This document shows, in pieces, positions 28,950-50,607 of a stretch of DNA of 64,000 nt; position 1 is the stretch's first letter, and the number at the start of each line of letters is the position of its first letter. The stretch is taken from contig NZ_JAGGMI010000013.1 of NCBI RefSeq assembly GCF_017875235.1, positions 1 through 64,000 on the forward strand, given 5' to 3'. This DNA is from Asticcacaulis solisilvae. Lineage in GTDB: Bacteria; Pseudomonadota; Alphaproteobacteria; Caulobacterales; Caulobacteraceae. A program made the position numbers and the translations under genes. Under the pieces are notes generated by a model. That model did no database searches. It worked only from the letters and a program-made list of their open reading frames with translations, and was not told where the DNA came from.

Positions 28950-30551
28950 TTACGCCCGCTTGGACAGGGCGACGTAATTTTCTTTCGGCTTTTCGATGAA
29001 GCCGCTGGCATAGACCTGTTCGATGAGGGCGCGGTGGGTCGGCAGCTCCTGGGTCGCCTGTTCGCCGAAGCGGATGATGCGCGCAAAAGTGGCGTCGGCC
29101 GCCGCCTGACGCGGGGTGAAACCGCCGGCCTTGGCCGAAATATCCGTGCGGAAATTCATGCCGTACAGGATGTACTGGTAGTTGAAGTAGGCAAAGGTAT
29201 CGACGTCCTCCAGGAAGTCGAAGCGCGATGGCGGCCGGTACTTCCACATGGCCAGCAGTTCGTTCAGTTCGTCCGGAATGGTGCGGCTATCGGCATTGTC
29301 GCGCCAGAAGGGCTCATGCCGTTTGGTCACGCAGTAATGCAGTTTGAGGAAGTTGACGGTCTTCTCGTTGCGCAGCGTCATCAGTGTGTTGAAGCGCTTC
29401 GCCTGGGCATCAATCGGGCCGTCGTGCGGGAAGAACTCGGTCAGCATGCCGATGGCGACTTCGATCATCATGATGCCGGTCGCTTCCAGCGGTTCGAAGA
29501 AGCCGCCCGACAGACCGATAGCGACGCAGTTTTTGACCCACTGGGCTTCGCGATAGCCGGTATCGAACTTGATCACCCGCGTCGAATAGTCGGTGCCCTT
29601 GGGGCCTACGTAGCCGCGCAGGACCTCTTCGGCGCGGGCGTCGCTGGTATGGGCGGACGAATAGACATAGCCGACGCCGCGCCGGCTGTTGAGTCCAATA
29701 TCCCAGGTCCAGCCCGCCTCGTGGCCGGTGGAAACCGTATAACTTTCAATGGGGGCATCCGGTGCATCATAGGGCACCTGGCAGGCGATGGCGCTGTCGG
29801 TCAGCAACTGGTGCTTGACGGATTTATATGGCGACTTCAGCGCCTTGCCGATCAGTACCGCCGCGAAGCCGGTGCAGTCGATATAGAGGTCGGCGTCCAG
29901 CTCACCCTGGCTGTCGGTCATGAGCGAGGCAATGGCCCCGTCGTCGCCCAGCCTTACATCAGTGATCCGGCCCTGGAGGTGGGTAACCCCCAATGAGACG
30001 GCGTGCTTCGACAGGAGCCTGGCCAGCTTGGTGGCGTCGAAATGGTAGGCGTAGTTGAGCGGGCCGGCGTAGCCGCCCTGGTGCAGGCGCTTGGGGGCTT
30101 TCTGCGCCTCGGCAACGCGTTTCTGGAAGGTAACGGCCTGGGCGAACGGCACACGCGTCGCTTCGTCCTCAAGCAGCCAGTAGGGCAGGAGGCCGGCGCC
30201 GTCGACGAAGTAGGGCGGGTCGAACGGGTGGAAATAGTGGGCGTGCCGGCCGTTTTCCGGCGTGAGCTCCCAGTCGGCGAAGCGGATGCCTTGTTTGAAC
30301 GTCGCCGTCGCTTCGCGCAGGAAGGTCGCTTCGTCGATGCCGAGCGTCTGGAGCGTCGTGCGGATAGTGGCGAAACTGCCTTCGCCGACGCCGATAATGC
30401 CGATGTCCGGACTTTCGATCAGGGTGATGCGGGGGCAGGTCGCGGGGTTCTGGCCCAGGACCTTGGCCAGATAACAGGCTGTCAGCCAGCCGGCGGTGCC
30501 ACCGCCCGCGATCAGGACGCGGCGAGGCTGTAAAGAATGATGCTGTTCCAC
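28950..30551 (-). CDS. Flavin-dependent tryptophan-halogenase-like protein 1
   Basis: The 533-residue FAD-binding protein belongs to the tryptophan halogenase family. The N-terminal Rossmann motif is G-G-G-T-A-G-W, then G-V-G-E-G-S-F; F-K-Q-G-I-R-F holds the lysine region expected for halogenation. The halogenase WxWxIP motif is changed to W-T-W-D-I-G (residues near 270). I start it at GTG 30551, because no ATG precedes the nucleotide-binding motif. It is last in the run symporter, GH16, halogenase 2, halogenase 1, and is closely related to halogenase 2 (30624-32201). Real substrate is unknown; relatives are frequent in TonB-receptor sugar loci. Confidence 0.85.
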   Translation of the reverse strand: MEQHHSLQPRRVLIAGGGTAGWLTACYLAKVLGQNPATCPRITLIESPDIGIIGVGEGSFATIRTTLQTLGIDEATFLREATATFKQGIRFADWELTPENGRHAHYFHPFDPPYFVDGAGLLPYWLLEDEATRVPFAQAVTFQKRVAEAQKAPKRLHQGGYAGPLNYAYHFDATKLARLLSKHAVSLGVTHLQGRITDVRLGDDGAIASLMTDSQGELDADLYIDCTGFAAVLIGKALKSPYKSVKHQLLTDSAIACQVPYDAPDAPIESYTVSTGHEAGWTWDIGLNSRRGVGYVYSSAHTSDARAEEVLRGYVGPKGTDYSTRVIKFDTGYREAQWVKNCVAIGLSGGFFEPLEATGIMMIEVAIGMLTEFFPHDGPIDAQAKRFNTLMTLRNEKTVNFLKLHYCVTKRHEPFWRDNADSRTIPDELNELLAMWKYRPPSRFDFLEDVDTFAYFNYQYILYGMNFRTDISAKAGGFTPRQAAADATFARIIRFGEQATQELPTHRALIEQVYASGFIEKPKENYVALSKRA

Positions 30552-30597
30552 GGATTCCCGGCCGCATTGGAGTACAATTCCAGCCAGGTTAGCATGG

Positions 30598-30623
30598 ATT
30601 GGTATTATATCAATAGTACCAAT
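30598..30623 (-). promoter_or_regulatory. Inverted repeat with promoter-like element between halogenases 2 and 1
   Basis: ATTGGTA and TACCAAT are exact reverse complements separated by 12 bases. On the minus strand the spacer contains TTGATATAAT, a good sigma-70-like -10 hexamer (TATAAT). It sits right after the stop of halogenase 2 and 47 bases before halogenase 1, so halogenase 1 may have its own regulated promoter. Confidence 0.5.
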
Positions 30624-32201
30624 TTAAGCTTTCTTGCTACCGATCTTGTCCTTCTGGCGGTCGATAAAGCCGTTGCGATAGACCTGTTCGATCAGTTCAC
30701 GGTGGGTGGGCAGGTCCTTGACGGCGTGCTCGCCAAAGGTGCGGACCTTGTCGAAAATGCGCTGCGCGGCCTCGAGATTGGGATAGGAGCCGCGCGCCGC
30801 CGTCAGGTCGGTATCGAAGTCCATGCCGTAAAGGATATACTGATAGCTGAAATAGGGGAAGGTCTCGACATCGGTGAGGAAGTCGAAGCGCGACGGCGGG
30901 CGATGCTTCCACATCTCGAGCATCTGGCGCAACTCGGAGGGAATGGTCTCGTCCGCCGTGTTGTCGCGCCAGAACGGTTCGTCGCGCCGCGTCAGGCAGT
31001 AGTGCAGTTTCAGGAAGTTGACGATCTTCTCGCAGCGCTGGCGCATCAGCCGGTTGAACAGGTCGGCCGGGGCGTCGACGCGTCCCGCATGCGGGAAGAA
31101 TTCCGCGATCATGCCGGCGGCGACTTCGATCATGATGATGCCGGTGGCCTCGAGCGGTTCGAAGAAGCCCGCCGACAGGCCGACGGCGACGCAGTTCTTT
31201 ACCCACTGGGTTTCGCGATAGCCGGGATCGAACCTGATGATGCGCGTGGCGACGTCCTTCGCCATCGGGCCGGCATAGGCGCGGACGACCTCTTCGGCGC
31301 GCGTGTCGCTGGTATGATCGGAACTGTAGACATAGCCGACGCCGCGCCGTTCGCTCAGGCCGATGTCCCAGGTCCAGCCGGCCTCATGGGCGGTTGCGAC
31401 GGTATAGGAATGGATCGGGCTTTGCGGCGCTTCGTAAGGCACCTGGCAGGTGATGGCGCGGTCGGTGAACAGGTACTTGCGCACCGAGGTCTGGGCGACG
31501 CCCATAGCCTTGCCGATCAGAAGCGCAGAAAAACCGGTGCAGTCGATATAGAGGTCGGCCTCGAGCGCCCCGTGTTCGGGCGAGGTCACCTGGGCGATTG
31601 CGCCATCGTCGTCGAGTGTCACATCGCCGATCGTGCCGCGCAGGTGACGCACGCCGAGCGTAACGCCGCGCTGCTCCAGCAGCCGGGCGAACTTCACTGC
31701 ATCGAAGTGATAGGCGAAATTCAGAGGGCCCGAGAAGTTGCCCTCATAGGGACGCTTTGGCGCCTTGTCGGCATCCGCGACCCTGGGCTGAAAGGTGACG
31801 GCCTCGGCGAACGGCGCGCGGGCGGCCTTGTCCTGCAGCAGCCAGTAGGGCAGGAGGCCGGCGCCTTCGACCCAGTAGGGCGCGTCGAAAGGGTGCAGAT
31901 AGTGCGAATGCCCGCCGTCCTTGGGCGTGCGCAGCCAGTCGACGAACTTGATGCCCTGTTTGTAGGTCGCCGTCGTCTCGCGCAGGAAGGTCGCTTCGTC
32001 GATGCCGAGCGTCTGAAGCGTCGTGCGGATGGTCGGGAAGGTGCCCTCGCCGACGCCGATGACGCCGATCTCCGGACTTTCGATCAGGGTGATGGCGGGC
32101 GTGCGGCCAGGATCATTGCCCAGGACCTTTGCCAGGTAGCACGCCGTCAGCCAGCCCGCCGTTCCGCCACCGGCGATCAGGATGCTGCGTGGCGATGTCA
32201 T
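30624..32201 (-). CDS. Flavin-dependent tryptophan-halogenase-like protein 2
   Basis: 525 residues with G-G-G-T-A-G-W-L-T-A at the N terminus, G-V-G-E-G-T-F-P-T-I-R-T, and T-Y-K-Q-G-I-K-F. Like protein 1 it has W-T-W-D-I-G in place of WxWxIP. The C-terminal half shares W-V-K-N-C-V-A-V-G-L-S-A-G-F-F-E-P-L-E-A-T with protein 1, pointing to recent duplication. The start is 98 bases after the GH16 stop, in the same direction. Whether it halogenates anything is uncertain; both copies keep the FAD-binding parts intact. Confidence 0.87.
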   Translation of the reverse strand: MTSPRSILIAGGGTAGWLTACYLAKVLGNDPGRTPAITLIESPEIGVIGVGEGTFPTIRTTLQTLGIDEATFLRETTATYKQGIKFVDWLRTPKDGGHSHYLHPFDAPYWVEGAGLLPYWLLQDKAARAPFAEAVTFQPRVADADKAPKRPYEGNFSGPLNFAYHFDAVKFARLLEQRGVTLGVRHLRGTIGDVTLDDDGAIAQVTSPEHGALEADLYIDCTGFSALLIGKAMGVAQTSVRKYLFTDRAITCQVPYEAPQSPIHSYTVATAHEAGWTWDIGLSERRGVGYVYSSDHTSDTRAEEVVRAYAGPMAKDVATRIIRFDPGYRETQWVKNCVAVGLSAGFFEPLEATGIIMIEVAAGMIAEFFPHAGRVDAPADLFNRLMRQRCEKIVNFLKLHYCLTRRDEPFWRDNTADETIPSELRQMLEMWKHRPPSRFDFLTDVETFPYFSYQYILYGMDFDTDLTAARGSYPNLEAAQRIFDKVRTFGEHAVKDLPTHRELIEQVYRNGFIDRQKDKIGSKKA

Positions 32202-32299: not shown

Positions 32300-33217
32300 T
32301 CAGGGCTTGGTGTAGACCCGGACGTAGTCGACCTTGAACTGCCAGGGCAGGGATGCGTCGTCAACGCCGTTGACCCCGCCGAAATCGCCGCCGACCGCCA
32401 GGTTGAGGATCAGGAACTGCGGGTGGGTGAAGGGCCACTTGGTGTAATCGCCCGAGCCGTCATTGCGGAAACTGAAATAGTTACGGCCGTCGATACCCAT
32501 GGTGATGCGGTCGGCGGTCCAGGTCATTTCATAGACGTGCCAGGTATTGCAGACATTGGGTACGTCAGTCAGTACGTTCTTTTGCGTATTGATCGAATGG
32601 TAATAGGCCTTGGTATGGACGCTCTGATAGATCTTGTCGACGTTCCAGCCGACATATTCCATGATGTCAATCTCACCGTCGTCCGGCCATGAATTATAAG
32701 GCGCCGACGGCAACTGCCAGATGGCCGGCCATGAGCCTTTCGGGCAGGTGACAAGTGCGCGGCTTTCGACGTGTCCGTACTGATAGCTCATCTTCGACAG
32801 CAGACGCGCGGAAGTATAGGTCTGTCCGCCCCAATCGGCATTGCCGCTCAAGGATTCCTTACGCGCTTCTATGATCAGGTTGCCGCCTTCGACGCGGGCG
32901 TTCTCCGGGCGGTTGGCCGAATAGTATTGCTTTTCGTTGTTGTACCAACCGTCCTTGTTGCGGACAGTGTCATAGCTCCACTTGGCGGGATCGGGCAGGC
33001 CGTCGATATTGAACTCGTCCGACCAGTGCAGCGAATAGCCGGCGGGTACGCCGCCCGGTTCGTTGATCTGGGTCGGGCCAGGGCCCGTGGCGGAAGAGGA
33101 ACTGCTGCTGGCTGTTCCGCCGCCGGAGGTCTGGGCCGAGCCTCCGCCGCAGGCCGCAAGGGCGGCGAAGCTGAAAACGATGGCGATGGTGGTGCGCAGG
33201 GAATCGGCGGATGTCAT
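32300..33217 (-). CDS. Secreted GH16 beta-glucanase lipoprotein
   Basis: The 305-residue endo-glucanase (laminarinase/lichenase type) cuts beta-1,3 or mixed beta-glucans. A lipobox (L-A-A-C-G-G-G) and a Ser/Gly linker tether it. The GH16 core has W-S-D-E-F-N and the catalytic E-I-D-I-M-E near residue 180, where the extra Met marks the beta-bulge type common to 1,3-glucanases. Also visible are W-P-A-I-W-Q-L-P and H-V-Y-E-M-T-W-T. I chose the ATG at 33217, preceded by GAGG. An operator-like motif lies 21-38 bases upstream. It sits between the symporter gene and the halogenase genes. Confidence 0.93.
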   Translation of the reverse strand: MTSADSLRTTIAIVFSFAALAACGGGSAQTSGGGTASSSSSSATGPGPTQINEPGGVPAGYSLHWSDEFNIDGLPDPAKWSYDTVRNKDGWYNNEKQYYSANRPENARVEGGNLIIEARKESLSGNADWGGQTYTSARLLSKMSYQYGHVESRALVTCPKGSWPAIWQLPSAPYNSWPDDGEIDIMEYVGWNVDKIYQSVHTKAYYHSINTQKNVLTDVPNVCNTWHVYEMTWTADRITMGIDGRNYFSFRNDGSGDYTKWPFTHPQFLILNLAVGGDFGGVNGVDDASLPWQFKVDYVRVYTKP

Positions 33218-33238: not shown

Positions 33239-33256
33239 TAATGACATCGATGACAT
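33239..33256. promoter_or_regulatory. Shared operator-like motif, GH16 copy
   Basis: AATGACATCGATGACATT. On the other strand it reads AATGTCATCGATGTCATT, of which 17 bases recur exactly upstream of the TonB receptor gene (49250-49266). A CG-centred near-palindrome like this is typical of LacI-family operators. It lies between the symporter stop and the GH16 start. Confidence 0.75.
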
Positions 33257-33291: not shown

Positions 33292-34881
33292 CTAGAAGAA
33301 GGCGATGACGACGGCGCCCGTGACGATCAGCAGGCCTATCGAGAGGACGCGGTAGTTCTGATACCATTTTACCGTCTTCAGGTGGGCCGTTTCGGCGTCC
33401 CATACATCTTTCGAGAACATCAGAGGCATGATGCGGTCGGGATCGGGCGCCGGGCCGTAGCGGTTGCCGACGAACAGCGCGGCAAGGCTGACGGCGAAGA
33501 TGACGATCGCCGCCAGCAGGAAGTGCAGGTTGATGATCTTGAATGCGATGTCATCGGCGAAAAGGATGACGCTGGCGGCGGTGCCGAAGGCCAGGGCCGC
33601 GGCAGCCCCGGTGGAATTGGCGCGCTTCAGGAACAGCCCGCAGATAAAGACCGCGGCGATCGGCGGCACGAAATAACACAGTATGGCCTGCAGGTACTGC
33701 CACAACGTGTCCTTGAAATGGATGATCTGCGGCGCCCACAGGATCGAAAAGGCCATGACCGCCACCGTCGTCACCTGGCCAGTCCGCACCAGGCCGATCT
33801 CGCTCATGTCAGGTTTCAGCCGGCGGATGAAGTCCATGGTCACCAGCGTCGACGTCGCATTGTAGATGCCCGACAGCCCCGACAGGACCGACACCAGGCA
33901 GGCGGCGACGATCAGTCCGATCAGTCCGTGCGGCAAAATATCGAAGACGATGTGCGAGAAGACCTGGTCCGGCTTGTCGAGGTTGGGGAAGAGGGCAATG
34001 GTCGCCGCACCGGGCAGGACGACGAGGAACAGGGTGGTCAGTTTCAGCGCGCCGCCCATCAGGCTGCCCCACCGGCCGTCGTCGAGCGTACGGGCGGCGA
34101 GCACGCGCTGGACCATGGTCTGGTTGGTGCACCAGAAGTAGAAGCCGATCAGGGGCACGCCGGTCAAAAGCCCTGTCCACGGCATGGACGGATCGTCGGC
34201 CGGCTTGATCAGCTTCAGATTCTCAGGCGCGACATTGCTGAGCGCCGTCTGCCACCCGCCGGCGGCATTGAAGGTGAACCACGCGATCGCCGCGCAGGTC
34301 ATGACGAGGACAAGCCCCTGCACCGACTCGACCATCAGGACTGCGCGCAGGCCTCCCGCGACGAGAAAGCCGCCGGCCAGCAGGGCCAGAAGTACGCACA
34401 CCTGCCATAGCGCCCAGCCGGGAAACAGGAGCTGAAACAGGACGGCGCCGGCGAACAGGCCGCCGGCGGCATCGAGGAAGATGCCGAGCACGATCGATAA
34501 CGCCGACACGTAGGTGCGGACGAAACGGCCGTAGCGCAGTTCCAGGAACTCCGGCACGGTGAAGACCTGGCTGCGGATATAGGTCGGCAGGACGAAGGCG
34601 CAGAAGACGGTCAGGACAACGGCCGCGCTCCATTCGTAGTTGAAGACGGAGATGCCGTGGGCATAAGCGCTGCCGGTCAGCCCGACCAGCGAGGTTACCG
34701 ATATGGTCGAGGCATAAAGCGAGAAGCCGATCTTGGGCCAGGTCGCCGAATTGCCGCCCAGGAAGTGGTCGCGCGCCTTCAGCGTCCGGCGCTTGTCGAA
34801 CCAGCCATAGGCGAGCAGCCCGGCAAAATAGGTGAGTATGATCCCGATATCGAGCAGGCTTAAGGCGGATGCCTGAAACAT
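33292..34881 (-). CDS. Sodium/sugar symporter (SSS family)
   Basis: The 529-residue transporter has about 14 membrane helices and brings glucose or a related sugar across the inner membrane with sodium. Family signatures include G-G-N-S-A-T-W-P-K-I-G-F-S-L-Y-A-S, then G-G-L-R-A-V-L-M-V-E-S-V-Q-G, and G-L-S-G-I-Y-N-A-T-S-T-L-V-T-M-D with the sodium-site Ser/Thr residues. I start it at M-F-Q-A-S-A; the longer frame has no ribosome site. It heads the GH16/halogenase arm. The sodium/glucose SglT group is the nearest fit; specificity is inferred. Confidence 0.9.
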   Translation of the reverse strand: MFQASALSLLDIGIILTYFAGLLAYGWFDKRRTLKARDHFLGGNSATWPKIGFSLYASTISVTSLVGLTGSAYAHGISVFNYEWSAAVVLTVFCAFVLPTYIRSQVFTVPEFLELRYGRFVRTYVSALSIVLGIFLDAAGGLFAGAVLFQLLFPGWALWQVCVLLALLAGGFLVAGGLRAVLMVESVQGLVLVMTCAAIAWFTFNAAGGWQTALSNVAPENLKLIKPADDPSMPWTGLLTGVPLIGFYFWCTNQTMVQRVLAARTLDDGRWGSLMGGALKLTTLFLVVLPGAATIALFPNLDKPDQVFSHIVFDILPHGLIGLIVAACLVSVLSGLSGIYNATSTLVTMDFIRRLKPDMSEIGLVRTGQVTTVAVMAFSILWAPQIIHFKDTLWQYLQAILCYFVPPIAAVFICGLFLKRANSTGAAAALAFGTAASVILFADDIAFKIINLHFLLAAIVIFAVSLAALFVGNRYGPAPDPDRIMPLMFSKDVWDAETAHLKTVKWYQNYRVLSIGLLIVTGAVVIAFF

Positions 34882-34963: not shown

Positions 34964-35063
34964 AATTTGGAAGCATAAATCCTGAAGCTTTACGGTGTGT
35001 GAAACCCCGATAGTTGTGCCGTGGCCAAACCGGGGTATAGGTACCGCGATCAAGGGAGCCGAC

Positions 35064-35915: not shown

Positions 35916-36187
35916 GTCCGGCGCGACGTATGGCGGAAGTGCAGGATCTGGATATTCTCGCCGATGATGCGGTAGGTGACGACGAAGGGCGTGCGATTGA
36001 TCGACAGGTCGCGTGTATTCTTCTTACGCCCCGGACGGCCGAGGTGAGGGTGAGTCAGCAATCGGGTTGTCTGCTTCTGAACCTCAGCCAACTGGCTAAG
36101 TGCCGCACGAATGCTTGAGCGCGCGGTATGTTCCAGCGCCGCGTCGCGGGCCTCGCGCGCGTCTTCGTTCCAATAGAGTGCGCTCAT
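35912..36187 (-). CDS. ParE/RelE-family toxin
   Basis: The 91-residue protein has the ParE pattern: helix D-A-R-E-A-R-D-A-A-L-E-H, then L-L-T-H-P-H-L-G-R-P-G-R, R-D-L-S-I and the beta pair F-V-V-T-Y-R-I-I-G-E-N-I-Q-I-L-H-F-R-H. Such toxins act on gyrase or on ribosome-bound mRNA; the sequence fits ParE better because of the final H-x-x-R. It overlaps the antitoxin stop by 4 bases (ATGA), the standard coupling. Confidence 0.87.
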   Translation of the reverse strand: MSALYWNEDAREARDAALEHTARSSIRAALSQLAEVQKQTTRLLTHPHLGRPGRKKNTRDLSINRTPFVVTYRIIGENIQILHFRHTSRRT

Positions 36188-36489: not shown

Positions 36490-36517
36490 GGCGGGCCTCC
36501 TGAACCAGAGCAATATG

Positions 36518-36542
36518 CCAAAAAGTGTGCAGCGGTTTTTGG
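36518..36542 (-). repeat. Interspersed intergenic repeat, copy B
   Basis: In the inverted orientation to copy A; CCAAAAA and TTTTTGG arms around a GTGTGCAGCGG centre (CCGCTGCACAC on the minus strand). The flanks TTTAG and CATATTG also match copy A. It lies just upstream of the RHH antitoxin gene. Confidence 0.75.
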
Positions 36543-40110: not shown

Positions 40111-40112
40111 TG

Positions 40113-40168: not shown

Positions 40169-42487
40169 TTACTGGCCGCGAACGTTGAGCGTCTGCTGCG
40201 AAAGCGTGACGGTCGCTGTCTGGGTCAGGTCGGTGGCCGAATTGCCGGTCAGGACCTTGTACTCGCCGGCCTTGACCGTCCAGGTTTTGGAAGCCGAGTC
40301 ATAGGTTGCCAGCAGGCGCGGATCGACGTCGAGCGACAGGTCCTTCGACTCGCCGGGCTTCAGGTCGACCTTGGCAAACGCCCCGAGGCGTTTGGGCGCT
40401 TCCCAGCCCGCATCCGCCGAAGGCGAGACATAGACCTGGACAGCGTCCTTGCCGACGACCTTGCCGGTATTGGTGATGCGCACCGACACCTTCACACCCT
40501 TGCCCGACGGCTGCGCCGACAGGTTGGAGGTGGCGAAGGTCGTGTAGCTGAGGCCGTGGCCGAAGGCGAAGAGGGGCTTCAGACCCTTCTTGTCGAACCA
40601 CTTATAGCCGATGGCCGCGCCTTCGATATTGTAGTCGCTCATCGGGTGAGAGTCGTGGTCGAGCTTCGGATCGCCTTCCAGGACCGGACGTGGTGTCTGG
40701 GCCAGCGAGGCCGGGAAGGTCGCCGGCAGGTGGCCCGACGGATTGACTTCACCGGTCAGGACACGGGCTATGGCTTCGCCGCCGGCCGTGCCGGGATACC
40801 AGGCTTCGAGCACGGCACCGACCTTCGACAGCCACGGCATAACGACCGGGCCGCCGGTTTGCAGAACGACGACGGTCTTCTTGTTGGCGCGGGCGACCGT
40901 GTCGATCAGCTTGTCCTGGTTGTCCGGCAGGTTCAGGTCCGGCGCATCGATCGACTCGCCCGTCCACTGCTCGGCGAAAACCAGCACGACATCGGCCTTC
41001 TTGGCGGCAGCGGCAGCCGCCTTCAGGTCCTTGCCGTCGAGATAGGTGACGGTGGCCTGCGTGCGGGCCTGAATGCCCTTCATCGGCGAAGACGGATACC
41101 AGGTCTTCGGACCAGGGAAGCCTTTGCCGAATTCGTCGGCGACGGGCGAGCCGCCGACCGGATAGACCTGGCTGGAGCCGCCGCCGGACAGGACGCCGAC
41201 ATCGGCGTGGGCGCCGACGATCAGGATCGACTTGGCGGTCTTCGACAGCGGCAGCAGGCCCGGCGTATTCTTCAGCAGGACGATGGCTTCTTCGGCATCG
41301 GCTTGCGTGATCGCGGCGTGCGCCTTGAAGTCGATGGTCGCCGACTGGTCGCCCTTGACCGGATTGTCGAACAGGCCGGTGTCGAACATGGCCCACAGGA
41401 TGCGGCGCGCCATGTCGGTGGCGCGCTCTTGCGAAACATAGCCGTTGTTGACGGCTTCGCGCAAAGGTCCTTCGAAATAGTTCGAGCGGTCAAATGCCCA
41501 GCCCGACTGCTGGTCCAGGCCCTGGTTGGCGGCCGGGATGGTCGAGTGGACGGCGCCCCAGTCGGACAGAACATAGCCCTTGTAGCCCCAGTCGGTCTTC
41601 AGGACTTCGTTGAGCAGCCAGTTGTTTTCGCAGGCATAGAAGCCGTTGACGCGGTTATAGGCGCACATGATCGAGGCCGGCTTGCCGATCTCGTTGGCGA
41701 TCTGGAAGGCCAGCAGATCGGATTCGCGCGCAGCCTTGTCCGAAATCTGGTGGTCGATGTTGAAGCGGTTGGTTTCCTGGCCGTTGAAGGCGAAGTGCTT
41801 CATGGTCGAGATGACATTGTTCGACTGGATGCCGGCGATTTCCTTGCCGGTGATGACGCCGGCTAACAGGGGGTCTTCGCCGCCATATTCGAAGTTGCGG
41901 CCGTTACGCGCGTCGCGCATCAGGTTCATGCCGCCGGCTAGCTGGACATTGAAACCGGAAAGGAAGGCTTCGCGGCCGATCATGGCGCCGCCGGCGTAGG
42001 CGAGGTCCGGGTTCCAGGTCGCGGCCGTGGCGATGCCCGACGGCAGGGCGGTGCGTCCACGCGGCAGGTCGGCGGCCTTGTCGGCGGCCGGAACCGTCTG
42101 GGTGGCGACGCCGACGCCGGCATCGGTCTGCCACTGGTTCGGGATGCCCAGGCGCGGGATGCCCGGGACGAAACCGGCCGAGAAGGGCAGGCCTTCTTCA
42201 GGCACGGCGAAATTCTTGATCTTGTTGACCTGCCACGGCGCCTTGGTCGAGAAGTAGCCAAAGGTCAGCTGCAGCTTTTCCGCCAGGGTCATTTCCTTGA
42301 GGAGGAGGTCGACGCGCTGGTCGGCGCTGAGGCTCTTGTTCATCCAGGGACGTTCGGCCGGGCCATCGGTCGGCGCGGCCGCGGCCTTGGGGGCATTGTT
42401 CGTCGTATTGGTCTGCGCCACAGCGGCCATAGGGCCGAAGGCGATCAGGGCCGAGGCACTCAAAAGGGCGAGTTTGTTCAGGGTCAT
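40169..42487 (-). CDS. GH3 beta-glucosidase, secreted
   Basis: The 772-residue enzyme has a Sec signal (L-L-S-A-S-A-L-I-A-F-G-P-M-A-A-V-A-Q) and removes glucose from beta-linked oligosaccharides, probably in the periplasm. The GH3 nucleophile Asp is in Y-V-L-S-D-W-G-A-V-H. The N-terminal barrel has K-H-F-A-F-N-G-Q-E and the second domain has G-G-G-S-S-Q-V. A fibronectin-III-like C-terminal domain ends the protein (V-Q-V-Y-V-S-P). It follows halogenase 3 by 28 bases in the same direction, so it is the third gene of that operon. Confidence 0.94.
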   Translation of the reverse strand: MTLNKLALLSASALIAFGPMAAVAQTNTTNNAPKAAAAPTDGPAERPWMNKSLSADQRVDLLLKEMTLAEKLQLTFGYFSTKAPWQVNKIKNFAVPEEGLPFSAGFVPGIPRLGIPNQWQTDAGVGVATQTVPAADKAADLPRGRTALPSGIATAATWNPDLAYAGGAMIGREAFLSGFNVQLAGGMNLMRDARNGRNFEYGGEDPLLAGVITGKEIAGIQSNNVISTMKHFAFNGQETNRFNIDHQISDKAARESDLLAFQIANEIGKPASIMCAYNRVNGFYACENNWLLNEVLKTDWGYKGYVLSDWGAVHSTIPAANQGLDQQSGWAFDRSNYFEGPLREAVNNGYVSQERATDMARRILWAMFDTGLFDNPVKGDQSATIDFKAHAAITQADAEEAIVLLKNTPGLLPLSKTAKSILIVGAHADVGVLSGGGSSQVYPVGGSPVADEFGKGFPGPKTWYPSSPMKGIQARTQATVTYLDGKDLKAAAAAAKKADVVLVFAEQWTGESIDAPDLNLPDNQDKLIDTVARANKKTVVVLQTGGPVVMPWLSKVGAVLEAWYPGTAGGEAIARVLTGEVNPSGHLPATFPASLAQTPRPVLEGDPKLDHDSHPMSDYNIEGAAIGYKWFDKKGLKPLFAFGHGLSYTTFATSNLSAQPSGKGVKVSVRITNTGKVVGKDAVQVYVSPSADAGWEAPKRLGAFAKVDLKPGESKDLSLDVDPRLLATYDSASKTWTVKAGEYKVLTGNSATDLTQTATVTLSQQTLNVRGQ

Positions 42488-42515: not shown

Positions 42516-44093
42516 CTATTCGGCGGCGAAATGGGCTGTTGACGATGTCATGGGATCGGCTGGACAATAGGTTCTAAGGAAGTCTGACAGCGCTGGCAAG
42601 GTTTGCACAAAACTCTGCAGTTGCGGCTTCACTTCGTTCAGCAAATGATGCAACTGGGCACTATCCAGCCGGTCGGTGAGGAAGTTGTAGCGATAGGGTC
42701 TGACCCCCATGCCTTCCAGCACCGAATACCACGACGGCTGGCGGAACAGCTCTTCCGGACCGGTTTCGCGCAAGGCGCCGGACGCACGGAAGACATCGAG
42801 CTTGGCCCGCAAGCTATCGGGGATCGGGTCCGACTTGACGCGCCGCCAGAACTCCGTGTCGTCGCGCTGCGTCACGCAATAGTGCAGGATGATGAAGTCC
42901 TTGATCTCGTCGTAGTCATTATAGATACGGCGGTTGAAATCGGCCTGCAGGGCCGGATTGAACGACTTGTCCGGGAAGTAGCGGAAGAAGAAGTCGAGCG
43001 TGCGGTAGACGAGGTGAATGGCCGTCGATTCCAGCGGCTCGATAAAGCCTGAGGCCAGGCCCAGCGACAGAACGTTCTTCGACCAGACCTGCTTGCGGAT
43101 GCCGGTTGTGAACGGCACGATCATCGGACCGGCCACGACCTTACCCTCGACCTGGCTGAGAAGGGTCGCGGTCGCTTCGTCATCGGAGATATAGTCCTTG
43201 CAGAAGACGTAGCCGTTGCCCGAGCGGTGCTGGAGCGGGATGCGCCAGCGCCAGCCATAGTCCTGCGCTTGCGCAAGCGTATAGGGGGCGGGCTCACCTA
43301 CGTTCTCGGTCTGGCAGACGACGGCGCGGTTGCACAGAAGCTGGTCGGCCCAGCTTTCGTATTCGACGCCCAGGGTCTTGCCAATCAGAAGCGCGCGGAA
43401 GCCGGTGCAGTCGACGAACAGGTCGCCGCTGATCTCCTCGCCGGACTTGAGCACCAGCGAGCGGACATTGCCGTTGGGCGCCTGGTTGACGGTTTCGATC
43501 AACCCCTCGGTGCGGATGGCGCCGAACTTTTCGGCGTGGCTTCGGAGATATTGCGCCACCAGCTTGGCGTCGACGTGCAAGGCGTAGTTGGCGGAGGCGA
43601 TCGGCGTGCGCGGCGCCTTCTGCGGCAGCATGAACCGGCCCTCAGCCGCCATGACCGAGGCGGGGGCGAAGTCCTGGAGCGCACTGTCATGGCCTTCGAG
43701 CCTGGCCTTCAGCCAGCAGTGGTAGAAGTCGTTGCCCTCTATGGCCGCGCCGATCTGGCCGAACGGGTGGAAGTAGCTGTGGCGCCTGGTCAGCCAGTTC
43801 TCGAAGCGGATGCCGAGCTTGAAGCTGGCTTGCGTCTTCTGGATGAAGTCCTGTTCGTTGATGCCGAGATTGGCAATCAGGCCCAGGAAGGGCGGGATGG
43901 TCGATTCGCCGACGCCGATCGTGCCGATCTCTTCCGATTCGATCAGCCGGACGCGGGCGCCAGGCATGTGCACGGCGAACAGGGCGGCCGCCATCCAGCC
44001 GGCCGTGCCGCCGCCGCAGATGACGACGTCGCGGATCTCGTTCGGATCTTTCATCAGGCTCTCTGGCATTTGCGGTTCTTTATGCGGAGACAC
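42516..44093 (-). CDS. Flavin-dependent tryptophan-halogenase-like protein 3
   Basis: 525 residues when started at GTG 44093, which has a strong AGGAGG five bases upstream and overlaps the halogenase 4 end by 14 bases; the ATGs at 44069 and 44054 have weaker sites. FAD motif G-G-G-T-A-G-W-M-A-A-A, G-V-G-E-S-T-I-P-P-F, F-K-L-G-I-R-F-E-N-W with the conserved lysine, and a canonical W-R-W-R-I-P (WxWxIP). By motif it is closer to protein 4 than to 1 and 2. It sits between protein 4 and the GH3 gene in one operon. Confidence 0.88.
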   Translation of the reverse strand: MSPHKEPQMPESLMKDPNEIRDVVICGGGTAGWMAAALFAVHMPGARVRLIESEEIGTIGVGESTIPPFLGLIANLGINEQDFIQKTQASFKLGIRFENWLTRRHSYFHPFGQIGAAIEGNDFYHCWLKARLEGHDSALQDFAPASVMAAEGRFMLPQKAPRTPIASANYALHVDAKLVAQYLRSHAEKFGAIRTEGLIETVNQAPNGNVRSLVLKSGEEISGDLFVDCTGFRALLIGKTLGVEYESWADQLLCNRAVVCQTENVGEPAPYTLAQAQDYGWRWRIPLQHRSGNGYVFCKDYISDDEATATLLSQVEGKVVAGPMIVPFTTGIRKQVWSKNVLSLGLASGFIEPLESTAIHLVYRTLDFFFRYFPDKSFNPALQADFNRRIYNDYDEIKDFIILHYCVTQRDDTEFWRRVKSDPIPDSLRAKLDVFRASGALRETGPEELFRQPSWYSVLEGMGVRPYRYNFLTDRLDSAQLHHLLNEVKPQLQSFVQTLPALSDFLRTYCPADPMTSSTAHFAAE

Positions 44094-45615
44094 GGTGTCC
44101 TCCTGAAAGGCGATTGCAATGGTCAAGGAAGGCACGGTGCGGAGGCGCGGCCTTTACCGTCGCGTCAATTTCCTGGCGGATATGCAGCAGGCGCGAACGC
44201 ACCTCGGCTGGCGTCAGTTGCCCGACCGCGGGATCGATGCTGTCGGGCCAGACATCGAAGCCGGCATAGATGGCCAGCCAGGACGCCGGGTGGAACATCT
44301 CCCAGCGGTAGCGGACAAAGTGGCCGCGGCGCTGATAGAGGTCGATCTTGCGCTGGAGCGTATCGGGCAGGTCCATGGCGGCGGCCTCTTTCCAGAAGTC
44401 GCTGTCGCCGCGCTGATTGAGCTTGTAGTGCAGGATGATGAAGTCGCGGGTCCGTTCCATCTCGCGCTTCGCCATGTCGTTATGCTCGTCGACCAGCATC
44501 TCGTCGAAGCCATCAACGGGCAGCAGCATCTGGAGACGTTCGATGCCGGTCTGGATGAGGGCGATCGAGGTCGACTCCAACGGTTCCAGAAAACCGGAAC
44601 TCAATCCGACGGCGATGCAGTTCTTCTCCCAGGCCTTGGCGCGCCGGCCTGGACGGAAGCGAATCACGCGCGGCTCGGTGATAGGCTTGCCGGGCAGGCT
44701 GTCGGCCAGAACGCCGATGGCTTCGTCGTCCGACATGTGGGCCGATGCATAGACGTGGCCGTTGCCGGAGCGGTGCTGCAACGGGATATGCCATTGCCAG
44801 CCCGCAGGGCGCGCCGTGACGTCGGTATAGACATTGGGAACGCTGACGCGCTCGCTCTGCTGGGCAACGGCGCTGTCGCAGAACAGCCATTGGCCGTAAT
44901 CCTCGTAGCCGACGCCCAACGCCTTCCCGATGAGCAAGGCCTGGAAGCCCGAGCAGTCGATGAACAGATCCCCCTCGATTGATTGGCCATTGTCGAGGTT
45001 AAGCGACGTGATGTGGCCGTTTTCAGGGTCGAGCGTGACGTCCTTCAGCACCGCATCGATATGTCGGACGCCGCGCGCTTTCGCGAAATCGCGCATATGG
45101 TTGGCGAACAGGCTGGCGTCGAAATGCAGCGCCCAGTCGAACTGGGTATAGGAATCTATGGTCGGCGAGGGCAGGGCGAATTTGCCGGCCTTGGCCAACG
45201 CCGCGCCCATGGCGAAGTCGTCGAGGTCCTTCAGGCCGAAGGCGTCGCGGTACTGGTTCCAAAAGTGATGGAAGCCAACGCCGCCGAAGTCGTGGCCGAA
45301 GGCGCCGAAGGGATGGATGAAGCTTTCGCCTTCGCGCTTCCAGCCGTTGAAGCGGATGCCGAGCTTGCACGAGGCCTGCGTGGCGGCGATGACGTCGTAA
45401 TCGGTCATGCCCAGAGCCGCATAGAAACGGCGCAATGTTGGAATGGTGGCTTCGCCGACGCCGATCGTGCCGATGGCCAGCGATTCGACCAGAGTAATCG
45501 CGATCGGTGTATTGCGGTAATGGTTAACCAGAGACGCGGCGGTCATCCAGCCGGCGGTTCCCCCGCCCAGAATGACGATACGAGACAGGCGCCTGTCGCC
45601 CCCGATGCTTGCCAT
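44080..45615 (-). CDS. Flavin-dependent tryptophan-halogenase-like protein 4
   Basis: 511 residues, started at M-A-S-I-G-G-D with GGGGAG in front; the 83 in-frame codons upstream have no such site. It has G-G-G-T-A-G-W-M-T-A-A-S, G-V-G-E-A-T-I-P-T-L, C-K-L-G-I-R-F-N-G-W with the conserved lysine, and canonical W-Q-W-H-I-P. The halogenase motifs are therefore complete here, unlike proteins 1 and 2. It is first in the operon with protein 3 and GH3 and lies downstream of the TonB receptor gene. Confidence 0.88.
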   Translation of the reverse strand: MASIGGDRRLSRIVILGGGTAGWMTAASLVNHYRNTPIAITLVESLAIGTIGVGEATIPTLRRFYAALGMTDYDVIAATQASCKLGIRFNGWKREGESFIHPFGAFGHDFGGVGFHHFWNQYRDAFGLKDLDDFAMGAALAKAGKFALPSPTIDSYTQFDWALHFDASLFANHMRDFAKARGVRHIDAVLKDVTLDPENGHITSLNLDNGQSIEGDLFIDCSGFQALLIGKALGVGYEDYGQWLFCDSAVAQQSERVSVPNVYTDVTARPAGWQWHIPLQHRSGNGHVYASAHMSDDEAIGVLADSLPGKPITEPRVIRFRPGRRAKAWEKNCIAVGLSSGFLEPLESTSIALIQTGIERLQMLLPVDGFDEMLVDEHNDMAKREMERTRDFIILHYKLNQRGDSDFWKEAAAMDLPDTLQRKIDLYQRRGHFVRYRWEMFHPASWLAIYAGFDVWPDSIDPAVGQLTPAEVRSRLLHIRQEIDATVKAAPPHRAFLDHCNRLSGGHRVSA

Positions 45616-45983: not shown

Positions 45984-48900
45984 TTACCACTTGGCGCGGA
46001 CGCCCAGGGTGTAGCGCGGTTCGAACTGGTTCTGGAACGCGTACTGCTTCGAGTCGCCGAAGTGATAGTTATACGTTTCCGTTTCGCCCGTGACGTTCGA
46101 GCCGTTGAAGTACAGCGACACGCGGTCGGTGACATCGTAGGTGGCGTTGACGTCGATGAAGTTGGTGGCTTCGGCGAAGATCGGAATCTTCGAGTTGTCC
46201 ACCAGGCTGGCGATGTTCTGCAGGCGCTCGCTGCGGTAGTTGTAGGCGACGCGGATCTGCAGCTTGTCGTCCTGATACCAGCCGATCAGGTTGAACTGAT
46301 CGCGCGAGTTATTGAAGAAGGGCAGTTTTTCGCCATCGAGGCCGACATCGCCGGATTCGGACGGCGAATAGGTGTAGTTGGTGTCGACGCCCAGGTTGGA
46401 CAGGAAGCCGCCGTCGACAAAGTCGGCAAGGGCGATCTTGGCGCCGAGTTCGAGGCCCTGGACCTTGCCGCTGTCGCCCTGGATGGGCAGGAAGATCGGC
46501 ACGGCGCCGGCGGGCGAACCGTCGGAGTTGACGAACTGGCCCGGTGCCGACAGGATTTGGCCGCCGACGACGAAGCTCTTGATCTGCATGTCGAAGATGG
46601 CGGCGCTGAGGACCGAGCCGCGGCCGAGGTAGTATTCCGCCGACAGGTTGGTGTTGGTCGAGCGCCACGGATCGAGGTACGGGTTGCCGTTCGAGTTGGC
46701 CGAGGTGACCACGCGGCGCGGCGGGACGTGACCCGGATCGTCATTGGTGTTGATCTTGATCGAGCCGCCGTAGTTGCCCAGGTCCAGCGGCTGCATGGTC
46801 TTGGCATAGCCGAAGCGCACCTTGAACTGGTCGGTGACATCGGCATTGATGTTCAGCGACGGCAGGACGTCGGTGTATTTGCGGTTGGTGACCGTGTCGC
46901 CGGTATCGGCATTGGTGTCGCCATAGGCCAGGGTGTCGCCAGTCACGTTCTGCTTGACGTTCAGTTCGGTCTGGATGACACGGACGCCGACATTACCCGA
47001 GAAGATGCCGACTTCGAATTCGCCCGAAGCGTAGACATTGTTCTCGTACATGTTGACTTCGTAGGTTTGGCCCGGAACCGTGATCGGAACCGCGCCGCCG
47101 AAGACCTTCTCGTGGAACGAGCGGACATCGTCGAAGTCCTTGGGATCGACGGCCCAGAAGCCCGGAATGCCGGAGGCGGTGTCGCCGCCCAGGCCTTCGA
47201 CGAAGACGACATTGTTGAATTCGTCAATGCGCGTCGGCTTGTTGACCGTATAGCCCTGGAAGACCATGACGGCCGGGTTGGTGGCCGACGGCACCATTTC
47301 GCCGGCGGAGCACTGGCCCTGATCCATCACGACGTCGATGGCCTTCCACTGGGCAAGGCAGCCCGTGGCCGGAACCGGCTGGCCGTTGGCCTGGACGCCC
47401 TTGCCGGCATAGAAGTTCGAGAACAGGTGGAACTGTTCGATGTCGGTCGTACGCTGGCTGACGCGGACACCGGCATCGAGTTTGGTGAAGATACCCAGCG
47501 CCTTTTCGTCGAAGCGGTAATGGCCGTCTGCACGGGCCACGTTGAGCGTCGACGACGCATCGTTATTGCCTTCCGACGAGAAGGCGCCGACGCGGTAGGA
47601 GTTCAGGTTGGCCATGTAGTCGGCGGTCGTCTTGCCGGCGCCCAGGCCGCCTGCGCGGGCCATGACGTCGCCAAAGCCGTCGAACACCGCATTGCCGCCT
47701 GCGAAGTCGACGTGCAGGAGCGGGTTGGAGTTATAGCCTTCCGGGTTCGGGTTGAGGTAGCAGCCGCCGGCCGAACCGGTGATGGCGTTCGAGCGCTGAG
47801 AGGCCGGGAATTTCGAACAGATGTCTGCCGGATAGAAGGTGCCGCGCGAGCGGTCATCCGGATTGCGGAACAGAGTGAATTCACCCGGGGCCGCCGCATC
47901 ATACTGCCAGTTCGACAGGTCGCCCTGGACCTGGCCGTTCATGCTGAGGCGGCTGGCGCGGGCGCTGATGAAGCGGGTTTCGGCAGTGAACTTGCCGCCG
48001 TTGTCGTACTTCAGCTCGAGGTTATAGTTGGTCGATTCCGAATTGTTGGTCCGGTTGACGGTGAACGAATTCAGCCACTGGGCGTTGATGTCGTAAGACG
48101 ACACGTTCCACCACGGCGTGCCGTTCGAATCATCCAGGCCGGTATCGGTGTGCTCATCGGGCGTCAGCCAGGTCGCGAACGCGCCGCCGTCCCAGCGGTT
48201 GGAGATGTTCAGGCCCATGGCGCGATTGTGTTCTTCGAGCTTGGCGTAGAACACGTCGCCGGTCAGGGTCCAGCCGTCGTCCAGTTTAGCCTGGAACGAC
48301 AGGTTGGCGCCGGTGCGCTTGCGCTGGATCGAGCGGTTGTAGACTTCGAAGCCGTGCGGCGCGATGAAGTTCTGCGGCTGGCCCGCGCCCCAGTCGTTCT
48401 GCGAGAAGACGCCGCCGCCGGAACCGGAGTAGTTGTTGCCGTTGGTCGTGTCGCCGATGGCGACGCTGGCCAGGATGCCGATACGGTCATTGCGCCATGA
48501 GGCGAGCCCGTTGACCATATAGTCGTTTTCTTTGGTGTAGTCGCCGCGCGAGGCTTCGGCCGCGCCCGTCAGGCTGAGGCCCTTCGGCATCTGGAACGGG
48601 CGGCGGGTCTGCAGGTCGATCGTGCCCGAAATGCCGGCCAGCGGCGTGCGCGGGTCGACCGACTTATAGACGACGACGCCGCTCATCAGCTGGGACGGCA
48701 CGTCGAGGAAGTTGGCCTGGGCCTGGCCGATATTGCCGGCTGACAGGTACTGTTCCCCGTTCATCAGGGTGTAGGTCTGGCCCAGACCGCGGATCTGGAC
48801 GCTGGCGCCTTCACCGGCTTCACGGATGATCTGGATGCCGGGCACGCGCTGCAGCGAGTCGGCGATGGTGGTGTCCGGCAGCTTGCCGATGTCTTCGGCC

Positions 48901-49130
48901 GAGATGCCGTCGACCTGGGCGATCGCCCGCTTCTTGATGTCGACCGCGCGCAACTGCGAGCCGCGCACGCCCTTGACGATGACAACCTGGTCTTCCACGG
49001 GCTCCGCGGCGGGCGCCGCCGTGTCCTGGGCGATCGCGCCCGAAGACAGCGCGAGCATGGAAACGCCCGAGCAGAGCAGCGTGCTGAACGCCAGCTTCAA
49101 CGCCTTCTTACCATTAAGGTGTGATGACAT
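45984..49130 (-). CDS. TonB-dependent receptor, carbohydrate type
   Basis: The 1048-residue outer-membrane receptor imports a ligand, here most likely a beta-glucan oligosaccharide. A Sec signal (to about A-I-A-Q) precedes a TonB-box-like D-Q-V-V-I-V-K-G. The plug has L-P-D-T-T-I-A-D-S-L-Q-R-V-P-G-I-Q-I and R-G-L-G-Q-T-Y-T-L-M-N-G. The barrel ends with the aromatic Y-T-L-G-V-R-A-K-W. The plug and barrel motifs are those of the caulobacterial/xanthomonad sugar receptors that have LacI and tryptophan halogenase genes as neighbours. No FecR/sigma pair is present. An operator motif lies about 120 bases upstream. Confidence 0.93.
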   Translation of the reverse strand: MSSHLNGKKALKLAFSTLLCSGVSMLALSSGAIAQDTAAPAAEPVEDQVVIVKGVRGSQLRAVDIKKRAIAQVDGISAEDIGKLPDTTIADSLQRVPGIQIIREAGEGASVQIRGLGQTYTLMNGEQYLSAGNIGQAQANFLDVPSQLMSGVVVYKSVDPRTPLAGISGTIDLQTRRPFQMPKGLSLTGAAEASRGDYTKENDYMVNGLASWRNDRIGILASVAIGDTTNGNNYSGSGGGVFSQNDWGAGQPQNFIAPHGFEVYNRSIQRKRTGANLSFQAKLDDGWTLTGDVFYAKLEEHNRAMGLNISNRWDGGAFATWLTPDEHTDTGLDDSNGTPWWNVSSYDINAQWLNSFTVNRTNNSESTNYNLELKYDNGGKFTAETRFISARASRLSMNGQVQGDLSNWQYDAAAPGEFTLFRNPDDRSRGTFYPADICSKFPASQRSNAITGSAGGCYLNPNPEGYNSNPLLHVDFAGGNAVFDGFGDVMARAGGLGAGKTTADYMANLNSYRVGAFSSEGNNDASSTLNVARADGHYRFDEKALGIFTKLDAGVRVSQRTTDIEQFHLFSNFYAGKGVQANGQPVPATGCLAQWKAIDVVMDQGQCSAGEMVPSATNPAVMVFQGYTVNKPTRIDEFNNVVFVEGLGGDTASGIPGFWAVDPKDFDDVRSFHEKVFGGAVPITVPGQTYEVNMYENNVYASGEFEVGIFSGNVGVRVIQTELNVKQNVTGDTLAYGDTNADTGDTVTNRKYTDVLPSLNINADVTDQFKVRFGYAKTMQPLDLGNYGGSIKINTNDDPGHVPPRRVVTSANSNGNPYLDPWRSTNTNLSAEYYLGRGSVLSAAIFDMQIKSFVVGGQILSAPGQFVNSDGSPAGAVPIFLPIQGDSGKVQGLELGAKIALADFVDGGFLSNLGVDTNYTYSPSESGDVGLDGEKLPFFNNSRDQFNLIGWYQDDKLQIRVAYNYRSERLQNIASLVDNSKIPIFAEATNFIDVNATYDVTDRVSLYFNGSNVTGETETYNYHFGDSKQYAFQNQFEPRYTLGVRAKW

Positions 49131-49249: not shown

Positions 49250-49266
49250 ATGTCATCGATGTCATT
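49250..49266. promoter_or_regulatory. Shared operator-like motif, TonB receptor copy
   Basis: ATGTCATCGATGTCATT, identical over 17 bases to the opposite strand of the motif before the GH16 gene. The right half overlaps a further inverted repeat reaching 49277. It lies 120-136 bases upstream of the receptor start codon. Confidence 0.75.
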
Positions 49267-49394: not shown

Positions 49395-49414
49395 TCCATC
49401 GATGTCATTTGTAG
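49395..49414. promoter_or_regulatory. Shared operator-like motif, LacI-side copy
   Basis: TGTCCATCGATGTCATTTG. It shares ATCGATGTCATTT with the receptor copy but has one extra base in the left half. It is about 170 bases before the LacI start, so it may serve autoregulation or act as an auxiliary site for looping with the receptor copy about 145 bases away. Confidence 0.6.
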
Positions 49415-49584
49415 GCATGAAATGTTCAGCTTTGTCTGTCAGGATGTTGCAAGCTTGCATCACATGGGGTTGCGTCTATAAAATGCACGTTATGGTGGTC
49501 GACCAAAGGGGCCATTGGCATGTTAGCGCAACCACGTTATGAATTGGTCGGCCGTTCCGGCACCGGGAGTTATAAAGCTAAATT

Positions 49585-50607
49585 ATGTCGACCATCTATG
49601 ATGTGGCCGAACTGGCCGGGGTTTCGGCAAAGACGGTGTCGCGTGTCCTGAATGAGGACCGGGCCGTCAAGGACAATACGCGCGAACGCGTCCTCGAGGC
49701 CATGAGCAAGCTCGACTACCGGCCCAACACTCAGGCCCGGTCGTTGCGCCTGGGCAAGACCAAGACGTCCGTCGGCATGCTGCTCGAAGATCCGGCCAGC
49801 GGTTATCAGGGCCGTTTCCACCACGCCATGCTGATGGCCTCCATGGAAACCGGCAACTACGTCGCCATGGAACTGTTCGAACACGGCCAGCCGGACTATC
49901 TCGCCGATGTTGACCGCTTCATCACCGACGCCCAGATTCGCTCGATGGTTCTCTTGCCACCGCTGTGCGACTTCGGACCGCTGAAGGCGCTCCTGAAGAC
50001 GCGCAACATTCACTGTGTGCTGATCTCACCGACGACGCCCGACAGCCACTATCCTTCTGTCGCCATGGACGACCGCGTGGCTGCGCGCGATATCACGGAC
50101 TACCTGCTGTCGCTGGGGCACACGAAAATCGCTCATATCGCGGGGCATCCCGACCACGCCGCGGCCTTGTTGCGCCGGCAGGGATTCCACGAGGCTTTCG
50201 ACGCGTCGGGCCGCCCGCGGCCGCCAAAGGACTATTTCGCCGAAGGCCTGTTCACCTTCAAGACCGGCATTGCCGCGGCCGAAAAGCTGCTGAGCCTGCC
50301 GGAGCGCCCGACCGCCATCTTTGTCTCCAACGACGAGATGGCGGCGGCGGCCTGTTCGGTGGCGCACAGGATGGGGTTGCGTATTCCCGAAGACCTGTCC
50401 GTCGTCGGCTTCGACGACGCGCCGATTGCGTCGGCCATCTGGCCGGCCCTGACCACGGTTCGCCAGCCCTATCTCGACATGGCGCGTCGCACGTTGCAGA
50501 TCCTCAATGCGGCCGGCGACACGGTGCGGGCCTCCGATATCCAGCCGCGCCACATTATACCGCACGAACTGATCGCGCGGGAATCGACCGCGCCCCTCAA
50601 GGGCTGA
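49585..50607 (+). CDS. LacI-family transcriptional regulator
   Basis: The 340-residue repressor has the standard helix-turn-helix (I-Y-D-V-A-E-L-A-G-V-S-A-K-T-V-S-R-V-L-N) and hinge helix region (Y-R-P-N-T-Q-A-R-S-L-R). A periplasmic-binding-protein-like sensor follows (I-F-V-S-N-D-E-M-A-A-A and V-V-G-F-D-D-A-P-I-A). It is divergent from the TonB receptor gene and is the likely controller of the beta-glucan locus through the TGTCATCGATGTCATT motif; the effector would be a glucose or glucan-derived sugar. This assignment rests on gene position and motif sharing. Confidence 0.93.
   Translation: MSTIYDVAELAGVSAKTVSRVLNEDRAVKDNTRERVLEAMSKLDYRPNTQARSLRLGKTKTSVGMLLEDPASGYQGRFHHAMLMASMETGNYVAMELFEHGQPDYLADVDRFITDAQIRSMVLLPPLCDFGPLKALLKTRNIHCVLISPTTPDSHYPSVAMDDRVAARDITDYLLSLGHTKIAHIAGHPDHAAALLRRQGFHEAFDASGRPRPPKDYFAEGLFTFKTGIAAAEKLLSLPERPTAIFVSNDEMAAAACSVAHRMGLRIPEDLSVVGFDDAPIASAIWPALTTVRQPYLDMARRTLQILNAAGDTVRASDIQPRHIIPHELIARESTAPLKG

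Follow-up and report, generated by a model that had tools for sequence, protein, structure and literature searches.

Tryptophan-halogenase-like flavoproteins accompany sugar-class TonB-dependent receptors in Asticcacaulis solisilvae and other proteobacteria, and may act on a polypeptide

Two described systems lie closest to the locus studied here. BrvH from Brevundimonas BAL3 (6frl), Xcc4156 from Xanthomonas campestris (6y1w) and 9luq are the nearest solved relatives of one of its enzymes, HAL3, and have the same motifs. BrvH and the Xanthomonas enzymes accept free indoles in assays (PMC5945002, PMC7336383), and BrvH brominates indole in a reaction that requires its lysine (PMC5945002). BrvH shows low activity on indole, and for this reason its authors doubted that indole is the natural substrate (PMC5945002); the papers on BrvH and three Xanthomonas enzymes state that the native substrates are unknown, and the open active sites of BrvH and Xcc4156 led their authors to propose substrates of peptide size (PMC5945002, PMC7336383). 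The brvH gene adjoins a second halogenase gene, 42.7% identical (PMC5945002), and TonB goes unmentioned in the BrvH and Xcc4156 structure papers. The second system is the CUT loci of Xanthomonas and Caulobacter, in which a TonB-dependent receptor (TBDR), an inner-membrane transporter, a glycosidase and a regulator stand together (PMC1790865), as they do here; the word 'halogenase' does not occur in that paper's text. For the sucA receptor, a phenotype was seen with 1 mM sucrose and not with 3 mM (PMC11909599). Here we describe a window of 64,000 nucleotides from Asticcacaulis solisilvae (contig NZ_JAGGMI010000013.1, positions 1 to 64,000) in which four homologues of Trp_halogenase (PF04820), named HAL1 to HAL4, lie in a locus of this kind.

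A profile search found 30 PF04820 genes (HALs) in this genome, so the four copies that an earlier, sequence-only reading of the window pointed out are not exceptional here. The control genome of Caulobacter vibrioides gave PF04820 matches as well. Within 5 kb of 25 of the 30 lies a TIGR01782 receptor, where 3.5 would be expected, and 18 of the 46 TIGR01782 receptors (counted after joining split matches, with sub-cut-off ones left out) have a HAL within the same distance. The five HALs away from such receptors are HAL1 (15.5 kb), HAL2 (13.8 kb) and three on contig C8. We refer to receptors with and without a nearby HAL as HAL+ and HAL-; in this genome the nearest HAL to a HAL- receptor is more than 5 kb away (8.1 and 9.1 kb in two cases). 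For wider comparisons, we used 122 HAL+ loci: 18 from this genome, 39 from 11 genomes of another order in the same class (where the HAL search stopped at E 1e-50), 58 taken from 80 named contig loci, and 7 from plasmids. The HAL- set comprised 58 HAL-free receptors in 52 stretches, all from this genome and the 11 others. The counts leave out G072:C1:337652 and G145:C1:995599, two receptors with HALs 6.3 and 8.4 kb away, and a partial receptor (G150:C1:1850000). On a tree of 175 receptors (the 182 without L052, four short rows and two that carry no label), the HAL label switches 10 times, compared with 48.2 in shuffles, and none of 500 shuffles was as low. One HAL- row in the own-genome receptor table and own-genome receptor tree (C11:80152) is an antisense open reading frame (ORF), which a reading-frame-based recount corrects. 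The association between HALs and receptors is solid, and HAL presence tracks receptor lineage, not one glycan.

In the window, the genes form two minus-strand units, A (TBDR-HAL4-HAL3-GH3) and B (SSS / GH16-HAL2-HAL1), laid out as follows.

49585..50607, plus strand: LacI-family regulator, divergent from unit A
49250..49265: operator copy upstream of TBDR
45984..49130, minus strand: TBDR, TIGR01782 class by profile matches, first gene of unit A
44080..45615, minus strand: HAL4, BrvH-like PF04820 flavoprotein, 511 aa, WQWHIP, Lys and Glu intact (listed ORF begins at 45864)
42516..44093, minus strand: HAL3, BrvH-like PF04820 flavoprotein, 525 aa, WRWRIP, Lys and Glu intact (listed ORF begins at 44135)
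40169..42487, minus strand: GH3 glycosidase, N-terminus resembling a signal peptide, closes unit A
33292..34881, minus strand: SSS sodium/solute symporter, upstream of the second operator copy
33241..33256: operator copy between SSS and GH16
32300..33217, minus strand: GH16 glucanase, lipoprotein-like N-terminus, first gene behind the operator in unit B
30624..32201, minus strand: HAL2, 2PYX-like PF04820 flavoprotein, 525 aa, WTWDIG replacing WxWxIP
28950..30551, minus strand: HAL1, 533 aa, 67% identical to its tandem relative HAL2, WTWDIG

The four HAL ORFs match PF04820 with E values of 1e-128 to 1e-170, and profile matches confirm the neighbours as GH16, SSS symporter, GH3, TIGR01782 receptor and LacI, in agreement with the gene content first read from the sequence. 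HAL4 most likely starts at ATG 45615, judging from the sequence. HAL3 was read as starting at GTG 44093, preceded by AGGAGG; this gives a 14-nt overlap with the end of HAL4, and the two are thus probably translated together. GH16 probably starts at 33217 and SSS at 34881, upstream of the operator copy at 33241-33256; the GH16 start would place this copy just upstream of GH16. A common operator had also been proposed, and ATGACATCGATGACAT bears this out: the window holds two sites, each on both strands, compared with 0.10 matches expected, and these (33241-33256 and 49250-49265) are the only exact sites in the 5.0-Mb assembly. The sole other near-copy in the assembly, with one mismatch, lies on contig C20 (G000:C20:26594-26609). 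With a TBDR, a transporter (SSS), two glycosidases (GH3 and GH16) and a regulator (LacI), the locus has the composition of a CUT locus, whose glycan we infer from the genes. The gap between HAL2 and HAL1 contains an inverted repeat, ATTGGTA-N12-TACCAAT, with perfect 7-bp arms (30598-30623, 26 bp); such a repeat arises there in 2 of 100 shuffles, and it may be an operator, a terminator or chance.

All four enzymes carry the FAD motif GGGTAGW (GxGxxG), as had been noted, and all are intact at the catalytic lysine and glutamate (K79 and E346 of PrnA; roles from PMC5945002). The WxWxIP motif, suggested to prevent monooxygenase activity (PMC5945002), is kept in HAL3 (WRWRIP) and HAL4 (WQWHIP), whereas HAL1 and HAL2 have WTWDIG; because of this, we class HAL1 and HAL2 as PF04820 homologues and not as proven halogenases. 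By alignment, HAL3, like BrvH, has a short substrate loop and lacks the free-tryptophan lid. HAL1 and HAL2, which share a long branch in the HAL tree, are tandem duplicates of a 2PYX-like type; HAL4 and HAL3 are an older, overlapping BrvH-like pair. HAL4 groups with the HAL of another locus in this genome, L021 (91/91 support, not starred), and no other receptor of the genome is closer to the window TBDR than that of L021; HAL3 falls in a different, weakly resolved group. Inspection by eye, with no predictor, showed no signal peptide on the HALs, whereas the receptor, GH3 and GH16 do show one.

Gene order in unit A is conserved across two classes. Among the loci nearest to HAL4, eight of nine examined have the order TBDR-HAL4-HAL3, and the ninth is cut at a contig end. 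These eight loci, from Caulobacter, Niveispirillum, Sphingomonas, two Microbulbifer, one Cellvibrionaceae bacterium and two metagenome-assembled genomes, span alpha- and gammaproteobacteria. The order SSS-GH16-HAL1-LacI, with a single HAL copy, occurs in 4 of 18 HAL1-type stretches, all from relatives in the genus; in a fifth, SSS adjoins a HAL2-like gene, and the remaining stretches differ. Since units A and B recur separately, the window joins two units, with HAL1 and HAL2 as a doubled gene of unit B. The single locus with four copies that the sequence-only reading described thus holds for its genes and not for its continuity: about 5 kb between the units (34995-39935) are filled by other genes, namely NUDIX, LigB, YceI, DUF1993 and a WrbA-type quinone oxidoreductase. 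WrbA is itself a flavoprotein, but nothing evident ties it or the other intervening genes to the HALs. The suggestion that the enzymes have a real job is supported by the conserved catalytic residues and from the recurrence of the TBDR-HAL4-HAL3 order in two classes.

The same reading had proposed that the enzymes modify an aromatic part of the substrate. Several observations run counter to this. Beside HAL4-HAL3 relatives stands GH3 in four loci and GH97 in two, and HALs also occur in receptor loci with GH13 or GH97. Neighbour families (single-linkage clusters, each named after one member) differ between the 122 HAL+ loci and the 52 HAL- stretches for LacI (36 v 2), GH3 (23 v 2), GH13 (17 v 1), GH97 (13 v 0), MFS (12 v 0), Cupin_8 (25 v 1), SapC (14 v 0) and DUF6445 (12 v 0), with uncorrected p values of 9e-5 to 0.02 and counts inflated by HAL+ stretches that are often longer; a histidine-kinase cluster shows no clear difference (12 v 6). 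Restricting the comparison to the two sources that hold both classes retains Cupin_8 (15/57 v 1/52, p 0.0002), SapC (10 v 0, p 0.001) and DUF6445 (6 v 0, p 0.03), while GH13 and GH97 (p 0.06 each) lose significance. Since the HAL follows the receptor lineage while the glycan enzymes vary (GH3, GH13, GH97), a sugar-borne aromatic target is disfavoured. A receptor-SapC-cupin-HAL cassette on a Sphingomonas parapaucimobilis plasmid (L111, NZ_CP155750.1 231686-249185) adjoins type VI secretion genes. No glycoside hydrolase is annotated in the 17.5 kb examined there, for which the gene table is incomplete, and this too speaks against an aromatic of the sugar substrate.

The companion families suggest polypeptides as HAL targets. 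In Shewanella sp. SG41-4 (L185), one strand carries, in a single row, LacI, receptor, HAL, SapC, Cupin_8, HAL, DUF6445 and GH3. The top PDB matches of the Cupin_8 profile are FIH (best), JMJD5, JMJD7 and TYW5, which are mostly protein hydroxylases. DUF6445 (PF20043) has HxD...H...R in 12 of 12 sequences (L185:11495-12253 and 11 relatives), and its structural model (pLDDT 81, 5 sequences) matches 2-oxoglutarate oxygenases at a TM of ~0.3-0.5, OGFOD1 among them alongside many small-molecule enzymes; from this motif and model, DUF6445 is likely a 2-oxoglutarate/Fe(II) oxygenase. Because this fold acts on polypeptides and small molecules alike, the companion evidence for a polypeptide is suggestive only. 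SapC matched no PDB entry at an E value below 0.19.

HALs are found alone, as close pairs and as triples, the triples often including a catalytically dead relative. Of 263 HALs, 31 seem to lack the Lys or Glu, one of which (L138) has an alignment gap at the Lys, leaving 30 dead HALs among 262 (L037, L038, L044 and L046 include examples); HAL1 to HAL4 are all live by these residues, and the Pro of WxWxIP is present in 207 of 232 live HALs. None of the 30 dead HALs is solitary, compared with 114 of 232 live ones, although live-HAL motifs had been used to find the 80 contig loci, which biases the dead-HAL counts; with contig loci excluded, the figures are 0/11 and 44/86 (p 0.0008). Each dead HAL adjoins a live one, with HAL neighbours on both sides in 22 cases and on one side in 8. 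A dead-HAL profile run over 22 genomes gave, among its best 30 matches (L278-L307), 13 loci centred on a dead HAL (two from the earlier set), and all 13 adjoin a live HAL, 12 of them on both sides; weaker, solitary dead HALs could lie beyond these best matches. A dead HAL from Asticcacaulis sp. AC466 was confidently modelled in the BrvH fold (pLDDT 92.7; TM 0.93 to 6frl). For three dead HALs of the A. solisilvae genome, the branching order agrees with that of their live neighbours, as can happen by chance with three pairs.

We tentatively favour the reading that HALs tailor a polypeptide by cytoplasmic oxidation, most likely a receptor precursor, while rating it somewhat short of even. The enzymes, lacking visible signal peptides, would act in the cytoplasm, using FADH2, O2 and halide, or O2 alone, to modify aromatic side chains of an uptake-system polypeptide. 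The likeliest target would be the receptor precursor while still unfolded and not yet exported, for example tryptophans that stack on sugar rings; because binding residues differ between receptors, a separate HAL would be required for each. Pairs and live-dead-live triples may be mixed assemblies that divide catalysis and recognition between their subunits. HAL4 and HAL3 would serve the unit A receptor, whereas HAL1 and HAL2, under the same operator, are of a second type, whose target is less clear. A fuller version, in which the receptors have a dedicated cytoplasmic set of live/dead HAL assemblies with FIH-like and DUF6445 oxygenases (and SapC) that modifies the precursor, is more doubtful.

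We searched the receptor for a target residue. In the A. solisilvae genome, a Tyr or Phe (residue 155 of the window TBDR) precedes a plug lysine in 18/18 HAL+ and 6/28 HAL- receptors, the best of 340 tests; the same aromatic is found in 33/39 HAL+ and 7/30 HAL- receptors of the 11 other-order genomes (p 3.7e-7), in 54/58 contig loci and in 6/7 plasmid loci. We rejected it as the modified residue because it does not follow the HAL on the receptor tree, and also because 17 of the 58 contig loci have Phe at this position. Since it does not change with the HAL, the plug aromatic marks lineages, and its column (182 receptors) is a handy, non-causal marker of HAL-linked receptors. Many further receptor columns differ between HAL+ and HAL-. 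Tryptophan content is higher in HAL+ receptors of both sets compared (1.83 v 1.49% and 1.36 v 1.03%, p 0.006 each, uncorrected for the ten residues tested, of which Gln is also higher); this enrichment was set aside as unsupported in independent pairs (2.0 v 1.0 of 8). Across 122 pairs, HAL and receptor distances correlate (r 0.38), which we rejected as proof of a receptor target because it may reflect orthology only.

A number of results weigh against the receptor-precursor reading. In the eight independent pairs, the plug aromatic changes the same way as the HAL in 0.7, the other way in 0.3 and not at all in 6.9, and none of the Trp, Tyr, His or Cys columns combines conservation of 75% or more in HAL+ receptors with a clearly lower frequency in HAL- ones; the residue test has low power with eight pairs and presumes one shared site. 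The correlation over 122 pairs vanishes below 35% receptor identity, and within the A. solisilvae genome it is weak (r 0.17, p 0.08, 18 pairs). The three C8 HALs (G000:C8:137250-141760, L044; one dead) have no TIGR01782 receptor within 40 kb, and the four SSS-GH16-HAL1-LacI relatives show no receptor in the 19.5 kb covered. The companion families occur in a minority of HAL+ loci, and no flavin reductase partner was identified for the HALs.

Of the other explanations, the one that survives best, above all for HAL1 and HAL2, although we consider it unlikely, is that HALs are mainly flavin monooxygenases or redox/sensor proteins that tune uptake expression or activity without halogenating. HAL1 and HAL2 lack the motif suggested to prevent monooxygenase activity (PMC5945002), LacI is frequent beside HAL+ receptors, and dead relatives are incapable of the usual catalysis; however, HAL3, HAL4 and most live HALs keep the WxWxIP Pro, and the lysine-dependent bromination of indole by BrvH (PMC5945002) argues for halogenation. 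An improbable alternative is that HALs act on a small aromatic entering with the sugar, such as phenolic esters, aryl glycosides or indoles. Plant cell-wall glycans can carry phenolics. The chemistry of the family and the acceptance of free indoles by BrvH and the Xanthomonas enzymes (PMC5945002, PMC7336383) fit such a substrate, but no aromatic is expected in the GH13 and GH97 loci, GH97 stands beside close unit A relatives, there is one diverged HAL per receptor, and the BrvH authors' doubt about indole (PMC5945002) counts against it as well. A small peptide, or some other secreted product of these loci, is quite improbable as the HAL substrate: MibH, which halogenates a peptide, is related through PF04820 (PMC7336383) and its structure 5uao was matched, but no biosynthetic family is prominent among the annotated neighbour clusters, in which short precursor ORFs were not searched for. 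That HALs are duplicated passengers of receptor loci with no job in uptake is just as improbable, for although distances correlate weakly in the genome and HAL1-type copies lie away from receptors, catalytic residues are conserved, gene order is kept across classes, HAL status is inherited with the receptor lineage, and dead relatives with an intact predicted fold are kept beside live ones.

Together, these results suggest that a protein, for example the receptor, is a better guess for the HAL target than the sugar. With a family tied to a receptor class, protein-hydroxylase-like companions and dead relatives, the 'unknown aromatic' becomes a question decidable by proteomics. If the receptor-precursor reading is true, it would give a reason for one genome to keep 30 such genes and would reveal an unrecognised protein modification in outer-membrane transport, the proposed tailoring set belonging to sugar-class TonB-dependent receptors of proteobacteria.

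In the open-access literature searched, we found no report joining tryptophan halogenase, TonB receptor and Caulobacter, SapC or carbohydrate operon, none joining halogenase, TonB-dependent and glycoside hydrolase, and none on pseudoenzymes of flavin-dependent halogenases or on JmjC/2-oxoglutarate with a TonB-dependent receptor. PMC11337851 and PMC3377617 name both tryptophan halogenase and TonB-dependent, with no link drawn in the sections consulted. The enzymes are known by family, while that literature yielded no receptor-linked HAL sets that include dead members. PrnA, RebH, Thal and other free-tryptophan halogenases have the fold family and the catalytic Lys and Glu in common with the HALs. 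QhpG and GoxB models match the HALs weakly (1e-6 to 1e-10), far below NCBIfam cut-offs, and we claim no membership; the QhpG and GoxB/LodB maturases act on peptide-bound residues. The nearest solved relatives of HAL2 are 2PYX-like proteins (2pyx from Shewanella, 9lu2 and 9ltb), for which the searches made found no function; they and HAL2 have a WxWDI-type stretch with G/A instead of Pro. In the alignment HAL3 lacks the longer loop of LooH and is shorter there, as described for BrvH against RebH (PMC5945002). MibH, which acts on a peptide (PMC7336383), is represented by 5uao among the structure matches of both HAL2 and HAL3. BrvH-type halogenases have been studied as biocatalysts, and a receptor-linked tailoring function, if true, would give these orphan enzymes a native role.

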